DNA from: Psychroflexus gondwanensis ACAM 44
Lineage (GTDB): Bacteria > Bacteroidota > Bacteroidia > Flavobacteriales > Flavobacteriaceae
Length of the DNA: 64,000 nucleotides
Assembly (NCBI RefSeq): GCF_000355905.1
Contig: NZ_APLF01000009.1
Location: 62,001-126,000 of the forward strand
Direction: 5' to 3'
Position numbers and translations under genes: made by a program. Each line of letters opens with the position of its first letter. Position 1 is the stretch's first letter. A model generated the notes under the pieces. It worked only from the letters and a program-made list of their open reading frames with translations. It searched no databases and had not been told where the DNA came from. Below are positions 13,168-16,465 of this stretch, one piece after another.

Positions 13168-13857
13168 GAATTTCGAATATCGCAAAACTAGATCGGTGGT
13201 GCTTCTATTAATGATGCTACGTTCATTCCTCCAATACATACTTCCATTGGAGAAATCATGTCCGACCTCGAGCAATTTGCTAATAACGAGTTGAATCATC
13301 TACCAGATTTACTTAAAATTGGCATCATTCATTATCAATTTGAAACCATTCATCCCTTTTTAGACGGAAATGGAAGAGTAGGAAGACTGTTAATTACGCT
13401 TTACCTGGTCAATAAAGGTATTCTTAAACAACCCATACTTTACCTTTCTGATTTCTTTGAGCGAAACAGACTGTTATACTATGATAATTTGATGCGCGTG
13501 AGATCCAACAATGACCTCAATCAATGGCTTAAGTTTTTCCTTACAGGCGTCATTGAAACAGCTAAAAAAGGAGTAACTACTTTTGATGGTATTATGCAGC
13601 TACAAAAAACATTGGAGCTTAAAATCAAAGGTTTAGGAAACCGAAGTGGTGATGCGAAAAAAGTTATTGATTACTTGTATACACAGCCTGTTATAGGGGT
13701 AAGTCGAGTGGAAAAAATTATTCAAAAATCCAACGTCACAGCCTATAAGCTGCTTAATACTTTAGAAGAAATAAAGGTCTTAAAAGAAGTTTCAGGTGCA
13801 CAACGAAACAAATTGTATGTATTCAATGAATACATTAATCTTTTTAAAATTGATTAA
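13168..13857 (+). pseudogene. Fic-family protein remnant, 5'-truncated with an in-frame stop
   Basis: The frame contains the Fic core HPFLDGNGRVGR (His at codon 32 counted from the ATG at 13258) and a C-terminal winged-helix-like part with EKIIQKSNVTAYKLLNTLEE. Intact Fic AMPylases of this type are about 370 residues; only about 230 codons remain. Homology continues upstream of the ATG: codons from 13168 read EFRISQN, then TAG at 13189-13191, then IGGASINDATFIPP. Family members usually have SQNWIGG, so the TAG replaces a Trp codon. Further upstream the frame is full of stops. The catalytic motif is intact, so a 199-residue product from 13258 is conceivable, but the inhibitory and N-terminal parts are lost. 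A decayed gene is the simplest reading. Confidence 0.8.
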
Positions 13858-14083
13858 ATGAATACCATACGCAAATCAGAACGCAGCACTCAAAACTGTA
13901 TCGTCCAGCTTTTTCAAAAATGAATATGATAAAATATATGTTTGGGTTCTTGGGATGGAATAATTGACTGATAACCCAAAAAGAGGTTTATACATCCAAG
14001 TTTATAAGTTCAAAAGCCTAGATAAATAGTGTCAAATTAATCAAAAAAAGTGTTGTTTTTCACTTCAGTTCTTTGTTAAGGGC

Positions 14084-14617
14084 TTATTCTATTATACTAT
14101 TACAACTAGAGCAATTAGACTCTCCAATTAACTTGCCATTTTTATCAAACTCATATTTACAACATTCGTTGAATTTTTTCTTTAAAATAGCTTTTGCCCT
14201 TTTGATTCTTGCTTTTACGTTTTCAAGACTTATTCCTAATTCTTTTGCACTATCTTTTTGTTTTTGTCCTTTTATATAACTCAGTTCAATGACTTGTCTG
14301 TAGATATCGGGCAAATCATTTATGAATTTATCGAAGCAGCATATATGTTGATATTCTTGTAGAGAATTTTCTTTATTTATATCCAACTTCTCTACATAAA
14401 TAGATTCTTCATTAAAGTAATTAACTATTTCATTACGAGCAATTTGAAAAATCCAAGCTCTCGCTTTTTTTTCTTTTTCGAGGGTGAATAAATTTTTATG
14501 AATTTTCAAGAATGTATTTTGGAAAATATCGTTTGTAATGTCTTTATTTTTAACCTTTTTAAGGATAAAAAAATATAGTTCATCATTGAAATTGTTCCAT
14601 ATCGTTTGAGTTTCCAT
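14084..14617 (-). CDS. SigZ-like ECF sigma factor with Cys-rich tail
   Basis: 177 residues. Sigma region 2 is at about 10-75 (DIFQNTFLKIHKN, ARAWIFQIARNEIVNYF) and region 4 is at about 100-150 (LPDIYRQVIELSYIKGQKQKDSAKELGISLENVKARIKRAK). After the helix-turn-helix comes an extra tail with CC at 152-153 and CSSC at 169-172; together with CC at 93-94 this gives six cysteines, suggesting metal or redox sensing by the factor itself. SigZ-like factors of Bacteroidota often carry such tails. No anti-sigma gene is adjacent. Upstream on the same strand, 48 bases away, lies the Cys-rich peptide gene, so the two probably form one unit. The intergenic region has no TAnnTTTG box on this strand. Confidence 0.88.
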   Translation of the reverse strand: METQTIWNNFNDELYFFILKKVKNKDITNDIFQNTFLKIHKNLFTLEKEKKARAWIFQIARNEIVNYFNEESIYVEKLDINKENSLQEYQHICCFDKFINDLPDIYRQVIELSYIKGQKQKDSAKELGISLENVKARIKRAKAILKKKFNECCKYEFDKNGKLIGESNCSSCNSIIE

Positions 14618-14665
14618 ATTTTAAAAATAAATAAAGATTAGTTTATACACTAACCTTTATTAGAT

Positions 14666-14779
14666 TTAGCAACACTTGCATTTATTGCATTCGCATTTAG
14701 AACAAGGACAATTGCTTTCCAAACAATTCCCACAATTACATTTGGTACAATCACAATTAGTGCATTTACAATTATTCAT
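14666..14779 (-). CDS. 37-residue metallothionein-like Cys-rich peptide
   Basis: An ATG-to-TAA frame of 37 codons. It has 14 cysteines in a regular lattice: C4, C6, C9, C11, C14, C16, C19, then C24, C26, C29, C31, C34, C36 and C37. The repeat is C-x-C-x-x with a period of five, broken once by LESN. The residues between are mostly Lys, Asn, Thr, Asp and Glu, with no hydrophobic core or signal peptide. This is what a small cytoplasmic metal-binding peptide would look like. The periodic pattern is far from chance and keeps the frame open. It lies directly upstream of the SigZ-like sigma gene on the same strand. I do not recognise a named family. Metal binding is inferred from composition only. 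Confidence 0.75.
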   Translation of the reverse strand: MNNCKCTNCDCTKCNCGNCLESNCPCSKCECNKCKCC

Positions 14780-15028
14780 GATATTAAGATTTTAAAGTTC
14801 ATCAAGTAGACTCATAAACATCATAAAGGATACATCTTATTTCGTTTTTTTTTATGCCTTTCAACCGTTTGGCAAAGAAACCTGCCCCAAAGGCTATGTT
14901 TACTTAGCCTTGTTGGCCTCTAAACTTTTTTTAATATAAAAAATAGTTATGCAACTTATAATATGTATAAATTATAATATATGATAAATTGATTGCATCT
15001 TTACTTTATAAATAAAAACAATTAACAG
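14780..15028. other. Intergenic region between the Cys-rich peptide and icd
   Basis: This 249-base divergent region carries a hairpin (AAGGCTA at 14890-14896 with TAGCCTT at 14905-14911) and very AT-rich DNA at 14930-15010. Neither strand shows a full TAnnTTTG box close to a start codon. Both flanking genes should have promoters here. Confidence 0.4.
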
Positions 15029-16465
15029 ATGCGAAAAATCACAGTAGCAAAAGGAGACGGAATCGGTCCAGAAATTATGGACGCCACACTAGAAATTTTA
15101 TTAGCCGCAGGTGCTAAAATTGAAATTGAAGAAATTGAAGTTGGAGAAAAAGTCTATTTAGCTGGCAATACAGCAGGTATTGCTTCTGAATCTTGGGAGA
15201 CAATAAGACGAAACAAAATCTTTTTAAAAGCACCTATTACAACTCCACAAGGAGGCGGTTATAAAAGTTTGAACGTGACCACTCGGAAATTCCTTGGATT
15301 GTACTCAAACGTGAGACCTTGCATGAGTTTGCACCCTTTCGTAAAAACGAAGCACCCTGTTATGGATCTTGTCATAATAAGGGAAAACGAAGAGGATTTG
15401 TATGCTGGAATAGAACATCAGCAGACCGATGAGGTTGTGCAATGTTTGAAACTAATAAGCAGGCCTGGTTGCGAAAAAATTGTGAGATATGCATTTGAAT
15501 ATGCTAAACAACAAAACCGCAAAAAAGTAACCTGCTTTACCAAAGACAATATCATGAAGCAGACAGACGGTTTGTTTCATCAGGTATTTGATGAGATTGC
15601 TAAGGAGTATCCCGACATTGAAAACGAGCATTGGATTATAGACATTGGAGCAGCAAAAATGGCAGATACACCAGAGGCTTTTGATGTGATCGTTATGCCA
15701 AATTTATACGGCGATGTTCTTAGCGATGTGGCCGCCCAGATAACTGGATCGGTAGGTTTGGCTGGGTCTGCTAATATTGGCGAAGAATGCTCCATGTTTG
15801 AGGCTATACATGGTTCGGCTCCTAGAAGAGCAGGACAAAATTTGGCCAATCCTTCTGGCTTGTTGCAAGGCGCCATAATGATGCTAAATCACATTGGGGA
15901 AACAGAAGCGGCAGAAAAAATTCAGAATGCATGGTTAAAAACGCTTGAAGATGGCATTCATACCTATGATATTTTTGAGGAAGGGTCCAGTAAGCAAAAA
16001 GTGGGAACTAAAGAGTTTGCACAAGCAGTAATCGAAAATTTGGGTCAGAAGCCTTCGATTTTAAAGCCTGTTTCGTACGCTAATAATTCGGCCCTAAATC
16101 TTCCAAAATACAAAAAAAGACCTGCGGCCAAAAAAGAGCTAGTAGGTGTTGATATTTTTGTTCATTGGAATGGCGTAGATCCAGATGAAATTGCTGAAAA
16201 CTTAAAAAAAATTGGCAAAAACGGAATCGAGCTTACTATGATCACAAATAGAGGGATAAAAGTGTGGCCTGATGGATTTAGTGAAACCTTTTGTACAGAT
16301 CATTGGAGGTGCCGATTTAAGCGTACTGATGGTTCGGGAATCACTAAAGAAAATATCAATGAACTTTTAAAGTATGCAATTGACGAGAACATTGATACTA
16401 TTAAAACTGAAAACCTATATGAGTTTGACGGCGTTCGAGGCTATTCAATGGGGCAAGGGCAATAA
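15029..16465 (+). CDS. icd: NADP-type isocitrate dehydrogenase with C-terminal extension
   Basis: 478 residues. The beta-decarboxylating dehydrogenase fold is clear: GDGIGPEIM at the N-terminus, the isocitrate loop VTTRKFLGLYSNVRP near 90, IRENEEDLYAGIEH near 117-130, and the metal-site region VIVMPNLYGDVLSDVAAQITGSVGLAGSANIG near 220-250, then EAIHGSAPRRAGQN. Residues beyond about 335 form an extra domain of some 140 residues (VDIFVHWNGVDPDEIAE... ), as in the Thermus thermophilus-type enzyme of about 490 residues. It turns isocitrate into 2-oxoglutarate in the TCA cycle. A small acidic gene follows after 20 bases, and the pair ends at a strong terminator at 16835. Confidence 0.94.
   Translation: MRKITVAKGDGIGPEIMDATLEILLAAGAKIEIEEIEVGEKVYLAGNTAGIASESWETIRRNKIFLKAPITTPQGGGYKSLNVTTRKFLGLYSNVRPCMSLHPFVKTKHPVMDLVIIRENEEDLYAGIEHQQTDEVVQCLKLISRPGCEKIVRYAFEYAKQQNRKKVTCFTKDNIMKQTDGLFHQVFDEIAKEYPDIENEHWIIDIGAAKMADTPEAFDVIVMPNLYGDVLSDVAAQITGSVGLAGSANIGEECSMFEAIHGSAPRRAGQNLANPSGLLQGAIMMLNHIGETEAAEKIQNAWLKTLEDGIHTYDIFEEGSSKQKVGTKEFAQAVIENLGQKPSILKPVSYANNSALNLPKYKKRPAAKKELVGVDIFVHWNGVDPDEIAENLKKIGKNGIELTMITNRGIKVWPDGFSETFCTDHWRCRFKRTDGSGITKENINELLKYAIDENIDTIKTENLYEFDGVRGYSMGQGQ

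Follow-up and report, generated by a model that had tools for sequence, protein, structure and literature searches.

A cysteine-packed peptide gene, its SigZ-like ECF sigma factor and their predicted promoter in Psychroflexus gondwanensis and other bacteria

The closest described counterparts of the locus analysed here are found among bacterial metallothioneins and ECF sigma factors. SmtA and its relatives contain His and adopt a GATA-type zinc-finger fold, as described in the available part of PMC10612145. The sigma factors CorE and CorE2 possess a Cys-rich C-terminal extension and a Cys motif in the linker between regions 2 and 4 (available parts of PMC8999054 and PMC3107203), and the 21 CRD sigma factors given in the accessible sections of the CorE paper come from Proteobacteria, Acidobacteria, Verrucomicrobia and Nitrospira, with none from Bacteroidetes. 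Cys-rich tails have also been suggested for ECF287 and ECF288 (PMC8999054, available part). In OrbS, a C-terminal Cys of the sigma factor senses metal and Fe(II) is inhibitory, with metallothionein unmentioned in the available part of the paper (PMC9023288). SigZ is unmentioned in the available part of a study of Bacillus and mercury (PMC12563154), and our literature search, which covered mostly papers available without subscription, found none that links a SigZ or ECF sigma factor to a metallothionein in Bacteroidota.

We analysed a 64,000-nucleotide stretch of the P. gondwanensis ACAM 44 genome (the window), in which a first-pass annotation had drawn attention to a short minus-strand frame dense in cysteine, next to a sigma factor gene.

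The cysteine-rich peptide and its operon

The frame lies on the minus strand at 14666–14779 and translates to MNNCKCTNCDCTKCNCGNCLESNCPCSKCECNKCKCC, followed by a TAA stop. The first-pass description of 37 residues with 14 Cys was reproduced exactly at every position (4, 6, 9, 11, 14, 16, 19, 24, 26, 29, 31, 34, 36 and 37). The peptide contains neither His nor aromatic residues, and a different reading frame across the same interval lacks a comparable Cys pattern. In eight simulated 64-kb sequences from a first-order Markov model of the window, used as the chance baseline, 37-codon frames reached a maximum of 5–7 Cys, against the 14 of the real peptide. The general metallothionein traits of very small size, many Cys in CxC and CxxC motifs and absence of aromatics are thus all present.

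Database searches placed the peptide in no existing family. Pfam and NCBIfam returned no family at E ≤ 1, six relatives searched against the same collections at E ≤ 10 gave a single uninformative match (M20_dimer, E 0.21), and PDB sequences searched with the peptide profile at E ≤ 10 gave none. The SmtA/BmtA profile PF02069 matched none of 60 relatives, the window genome included, and was positive on its Synechococcus control, which bears out the earlier view of a small, new Cys-lattice family distinct from SmtA/BmtA. AlphaFold2 modelled the peptide, in an apo prediction, at low confidence (mean pLDDT 68) and without a fold; this would be expected of an apo-metallothionein, yet is not proof of one.

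Relatives of the peptide were found in 11 of 149 close genomes, in genomes of the wider family (see below) and at 49 named loci in genome_contigs, the last by a scan with two short peptide patterns. Removal of 12 duplicates from the 80 loci collected left 68 distinct loci, which we refer to as family I. The first-pass annotation had considered that stops or frameshifts might interrupt the lattice in related genomes; instead it is intact in 64 of the 68 loci, with all 14 Cys in register, and the remaining four (L030, L031, L072, L076) retain the lattice, either from a displaced start or minus a residue. Cys codons alternate between TGT and TGC among the loci with Cys always retained, and pN/pS is approximately 0.27 (195 of 2016 pairs, those of moderate divergence). 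From these alignments, the Cys lattice is under purifying selection.

Psychroflexus tropicus, P. halocasei, P. lacisalsi and P. sediminis all have peptide loci in genome_contigs. Carriers belong to Flavobacteriaceae, Weeksellaceae, Crocinitomicaceae, Cyclobacteriaceae, Roseivirgaceae, Haliscomenobacteraceae and Balneolaceae, family names drawn from a tree that holds 38 of the 49 genome_contigs loci. Horizontal transfer of the peptide–sigma pair between orders is likely, because Roseivirga spongicola (the L033/L034 pair) has a peptide identical to that of P. tropicus and a closely related sigma factor. The two species group with support of 99/94, in a tree where only 7 of 36 inner branches are well supported. 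A mobile or phage origin was considered and discarded: plasmids searched with the peptide and with the sigma factor gave no match, and viral contigs contained no confirmed relative. Salegentibacter sp. 24 has two separate peptide–sigma operons on different contigs (L042, L061). At L020/L071 and L023 the peptide has neither a sigma gene nor a promoter next to it and shows no clear hairpin; at L023 the frame extends 10 residues beyond the Cys lattice. An uncultured Mesonia (L079) has an intact peptide followed by a sigma gene apparently in two pieces, possibly through decay or assembly error.

A co-directional SigZ-like ECF sigma gene lies downstream of the peptide gene in 66 of the 68 loci, usually after a gap of about 50 nt (range 18–263). 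Within the neighbourhoods compared (about 1.5 kb on each side for L001–L031 and up to 5 kb for most others, clusters unannotated), no other gene family occurs in more than six loci, and such clusters come mainly from related species, for example Arenibacter. A linked anti-sigma gene was sought among these neighbours, and sigma and peptide were the only genes to recur across lineages. We also scanned 397 family genomes with a sigma model, scoring eight candidates per genome, and obtained 24 matches of at least 212 bits, the next score being 160.7. The peptide is present in 25 of these genomes, the high-scoring sigma in 24 and both in 23 (Fisher 6e-34), leaving two genomes with the peptide alone (G307, G443) and one with the sigma alone (G310); at L143, a family I sigma has no peptide before it. 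Elsewhere in the window, 13258–13857 encodes a Fic/DOC protein that covers only profile positions 47–93 of Fic and may be a shortened gene.

Upstream of the peptide we identified a predicted ECF-type promoter at 14806–14834 on the minus strand, with a -35 element TGTATC (14829–14834) and a -10 element GTCTAC (14806–14811) that ends 26 nt before the ATG. We take its spacing and the GTCT of its second half to fit ECF promoters; sites resembling sigma-70 promoters were less numerous than in shuffled sequences. The loose form GTATCYTT-N13-15-RTCTHC is found in 63 of the 68 loci, always 28 bp long and in 55 of the 63 placed 53–54 nt before the ATG, and the strict form TGTATCYTTT-N12-14-GTCTMC in 47 of 68; L013, L020, L023, L024 and L076 have no loose form. 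Across 16 whole genomes, GTATCYTTT-N12-15-GTCTMC gave 15 sites, of which 13 lie at the operon, compared with one in a reversed control. In the window genome, TGTATCYTTTTN12GTCTMC with up to one mismatch recovers the operon site alone (itself one mismatch), and at two mismatches the five sites equal the five of the control, which is background. A larger family I regulon was rejected: of six extra sites with zero or one mismatch that we examined, five (L122, L123, L112, L105, L095) lie in genes or are misplaced, and none stands before an exporter gene. The sixth, an exact family I promoter, occurs 179 nt before a 195-residue lipoprotein-like gene at L102 (genome G079), with a two-mismatch counterpart in another genome of that genus (G357:C22:54379).

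The pairing of promoter and sigma factor is supported by this distribution. The first-pass annotation had proposed that the peptide is controlled with or by the adjacent sigma factor. Co-direction in 66 of 68 loci, an ECF-type promoter tied to the pair and co-occurrence in 23 genomes agree with that proposal: they support control together with the sigma factor, and control by it is probable.

Between the two genes, a hairpin at 14633–14658 on the minus strand has a 10-bp stem (AAAGGTTAGT / ACTAATCTTT), a 6-nt loop and a T-rich tail at 14623–14632. Over the 68 family I loci its median z is -4.09, and 58 of them have a stem of at least 8 pairs, compared with 17 and 14 in two controls; it is weak or absent in 10. 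In 30 family I rows picked for a visible hairpin, a choice that favours pairing and double changes less so, 97% of cells are paired and both partners have changed in 8 of the 10 pairs; double changes fill 40 cells against 8.7 in shuffles, a count reached by 0 of 500 shuffles. Sliding the two strands against each other abolishes pairing. Rfam gave no match in 14000–15100, so that a known RNA element was rejected as its identity, and a simple terminator scan left the A+T-rich hairpin unflagged. We infer that it may be terminator-like (a partial terminator), a stabilising end or a processing element, a layout by which the peptide would be made in excess of the sigma factor.

That the reading frame arose by chance or is untranslated has a negligible probability. 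The frame is short, and its restriction to 25 of the 397 family genomes would suit such an origin, but the promoter, the covarying hairpin and the Cys conservation set against the simulations rule it out for practical purposes. By all these comparisons, the cysteine-packed peptide has a genuine gene that is widely conserved among bacteria, marine ones included.

The sigma factor and a proposed metal circuit

The downstream gene (14084–14617, minus strand) encodes a 177-residue ECF sigma factor with regions 2 and 4 (PF04542, PF08281) and a Cys-containing C-terminal tail. The first-pass label of a sigZ-like gene holds as far as likeness goes, TIGR02959 (SigZ) scoring 145.1 bits, but membership of SigZ proper does not, as the curated cut-off of 168.65 is not reached. 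In a fold search with the sigma model, ECF sigma factors rank first.

Two groups of Cys stand out. Cys93-Cys94 (14336–14341, minus strand) lie in the linker between regions 2 and 4, and the tail C152-C153-x15-C169-x2-C172 (14102–14164, minus strand) is a proposed metal sensor. In an alignment of 48 family I sigma factors, C93, C152, C153 and C169 are invariant, C94 is nearly so and C172 is kept in at least 90%; when sigma factors of a second family described below are included, the C94 column alone of the linker pair is invariant. The tail type is CC-x15-20-CxxC, with x15 in the window sigma and x19-20 in the second family. Residues 152–177 have a weak match to PF15629 (E 0.059). AlphaFold2 models regions 2 and 4 as helical and the tail, with low confidence, as a beta hairpin and short helix; pLDDT in the final blocks is 64, 55 and 41. 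We compared tail and peptide in 87 sigma factors, namely the sister group L150–L235 and L143 and excluding other family I loci, with a pattern (CC..G.L.G..C..C) written after the tails had been inspected: tail and peptide occur together in 50, the tail alone in one (L143) and neither in 36. The C-terminal Cys tail thus tracks the presence of the peptide (50/1 versus 0/36) in this table, and metal sensing through the tail would be its putative function.

We propose that the locus encodes a metal-sensing sigma factor that is free of an anti-sigma and dedicated to its own metallothionein, the peptide trapping soft metals and the sigma acting as a self-inducing switch, and we assign this reading a probability of roughly 0.78. 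In the cytoplasm, the peptide would trap soft metal ions in the manner of a metallothionein. Trace amounts of sigma factor would sense metal via the Cys of linker and tail. Metal-loaded sigma would take RNA polymerase to the TGTATCYTTTT/GTCTAC promoter before the peptide gene, and transcription would yield abundant peptide mRNA and less sigma mRNA beyond the intercistronic hairpin. Freshly made peptide would then chelate the metal, allowing the sigma factor to relax.

The invariant linker and tail Cys could be redox active, and metallothioneins release zinc upon oxidation. The peptide might then store thiols or zinc against redox stress, with the sigma tail as a disulfide switch. We consider this quite improbable, as genes for resistance to metals and metalloids are found repeatedly near members of the sigma family (neighbour clusters unannotated), and continue with the metal-sensing reading below.

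Sister peptides and the wider sigma group

The next SigZ group also has a Cys-rich peptide upstream, mostly of 33–34 residues with 11 Cys, in 50 of 86 loci (L150–L235, with the seven lowest-scoring matches and one contig-edge match left out). In this family II the peptide–sigma gap is 40–249 nt. Its promoter, TGCATCTTTTT-N-GTCTW, is found in 47 of the 50 loci by one pattern and in all 50 by a looser one, and the two promoter types are exclusive: no strict family I match occurs in family II and no TGCATC type in family I. An intercistronic hairpin is also present, with z < -2 in 48 of 50 loci against 6 and 4 of 50 in controls, one of which may overlap long gaps; the stem counts (44 of 50 against 26 and 36) discriminate poorly, the stretches being longer.

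Scanning the 50 genomes with TGCATCTTTT-N12-13-GTCTW gave 45 sites, 40 at the operon, against two in a reversed control. Among the five off-operon sites, two are antisense in genes, one stands before a DUF3703 gene and two precede CDF cation exporter genes (2 of 50 genomes), beginning 51 nt before the ATG of L290 560–1477 and 45 nt before that of L334 590–1483, both on the minus strand. The exporters are closest to ZitB, and one of the two genes adjoins a CzcB/NccB-type adaptor. At L187:231-612, the DUF3703 gene behind a family II type promoter lies just upstream of the peptide–sigma operon, which hints that DUF3703 has a metal-related role.

These CDF sites are the best clue to the metal and, coming from the sister family and 2 of 50 genomes, point weakly to Zn/Cd. 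The divalent soft metals Zn and Cd are the most likely inducers, with As(III), Hg or Cu(I) possible. The window's own family offers no comparable clue: As/Hg genes are near few loci, and no family I site was found before an exporter.

We extended the survey to 395 genomes of the phylum, 43 of which have a sigma factor at E ≤ 1e-30. The 43 loci (L244–L286, from 44 matches) include 18 with a metallothionein-like peptide: seven of family I, four of family II and seven of other types. The other types lie downstream of the sigma gene at L256, L258, L260 and L262 and upstream at L279 (spotted by eye), L280 and L283. Two flagged frames, at L272 (5 Cys in 37 residues) and L285 (56 residues, CC pairs), were not counted as metallothionein-like. 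Peptide types therefore vary in length (26–48 residues), Cys content (8–14) and position, and promoter and sigma stay recognisable.

In the loci with reversed gene order (L256, L258 and L260, of one genus, and L262), sigma and peptide genes each have a TGC[AG]TC...CGTCTT promoter, the peptide-side copies being read by eye and a stricter exact pattern finding five of the eight copies. That each gene has a promoter copy of its own, in both of these lineages, is the best indication that the sigma factor recognises this promoter and has the peptide as its target. Extra sites of the stricter pattern (G576:C24, G695:C134) are antisense in genes. At L276 and L277 (G524 and G652), a second copy of the promoter, roughly 0.7 kb beyond the start of the sigma gene, stands before a putative secreted protein of 315–333 residues, not a Cys peptide.

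The same observations bear on another possibility, in which the peptide would mainly be a partner that regulates the sigma factor, as a soluble anti-sigma or reset factor released by metal, rather than a detoxifying metallothionein. Peptide and sigma are paired nearly one-to-one, no other anti-sigma candidate recurs across lineages and the promoter is nearly exclusive to the operon, all of which such a partner would share. However, an anti-sigma would not need 14 lattice Cys, the peptide changes in type and position while promoter and sigma remain recognisable, the hairpin layout suggests that peptide exceeds sigma, and two loci retain the peptide without the sigma. We regard this alternative as improbable, and favour a metallothionein that the sigma factor induces.

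SigZ sigma factors without a metallothionein-like peptide adjoin genes for arsenite methyltransferase (ArsM), ArsI/CadI, ACR3 or ArsR-MerTP. By phmmer, such As/Hg genes occur at 14 of the 43 phylum loci and, apart from ACR3 at L253 and L254, at none of the 18 with a peptide; these two combine a family I peptide with ACR3 and are counted among the peptide loci. NCBIfam confirmed the As/Hg genes at L257, L263, L264, L265, L266, L267, L268 and L273. Because these genes adjoin related, peptide-less sigma factors, the neighbourhoods suggest that the wider SigZ-type group serves thiophilic metal(loid) resistance. They would also fit a system specific for arsenite or mercury rather than Zn/Cd, as would the presence of ACR3 close to three family I loci and of MerTP close to a fourth. 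However, these four are the only such cases among the 68 family I loci (21 of which span less than 6 kb), and of the three extra sister-promoter sites that are well placed, two stand before ZitB-like CDF exporters. We consider specificity for arsenite or mercury unlikely, with Zn/Cd the preferred inducers.

The lattices found under this promoter type (37 residues with 14 Cys, 33 with 11, 26–27 with 8, and others) allow a tentative extension, which we hold at somewhat short of even odds: a Bacteroidota-wide class of anti-sigma-free, metal-sensing sigma factors with their own peptides, in which unlike lattices are swapped under TGYRTCYTTT...GTCT and the peptide strips metal from the sigma tail, closing a two-gene homeostatic circuit. 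If correct, Bacteroidota would have metallothioneins of their own where the SmtA-type profile matched none of the 60 relatives scanned, and the SigZ-like group, to which to our knowledge no function has been assigned so far, would acquire a role. Sensor, transcription factor and chelator would form a minimal metal circuit of two genes, with no membrane protein or anti-sigma. As the system is small and partly spread horizontally, it could be tested in laboratory strains and used as a metal sensor or sink. A conserved promoter can, in addition, reveal very short genes.

Comparison with known systems

Comparison with SmtA/BmtA metallothioneins (PF02069; SmtA, PmtA, NmtA) indicates a shared small size, Cys richness, CxC and CxxC motifs and presumed role as a cytoplasmic trap. 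The window peptide differs in that it lacks His, packs 14 Cys into 37 residues and does not match PF02069, and in its probable control by an ECF sigma factor, whereas ArsR/SmtB regulators control the known type. Its low-confidence apo model has no fold.

The sigma factor shares with CorE and CorE2 (ECF238, formerly ECF44) the lack of a linked anti-sigma, a Cys-rich C-terminal extension and Cys in the linker. Its linker has CC where CorE has CxC, its tail is CC-x15-CxxC, a spacing not aligned to the CorE domain, and it is paired with a metallothionein-like peptide, whereas CorE targets such as cuoB differ. The layout resembles CorE-type control, itself a precedent for a Cys sensor carried within the sigma factor, but the differing linker motif does not support counting the window sigma as a CorE member.

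SigZ (TIGR02959) is the best named family for the window sigma, and a CC-containing tail region is common to both; the window sigma falls below the curated cut-off, and other SigZ relatives in the phylum adjoin As/Hg genes or other peptides. OrbS of Burkholderia shares the use of a C-terminal Cys as an on-board metal sensor, but is an iron-starvation sigma factor inhibited by Fe(II). The elements newly described here are the near-invariant promoter, the covarying hairpin, the second peptide family and the separate promoter copies of the reversed loci.
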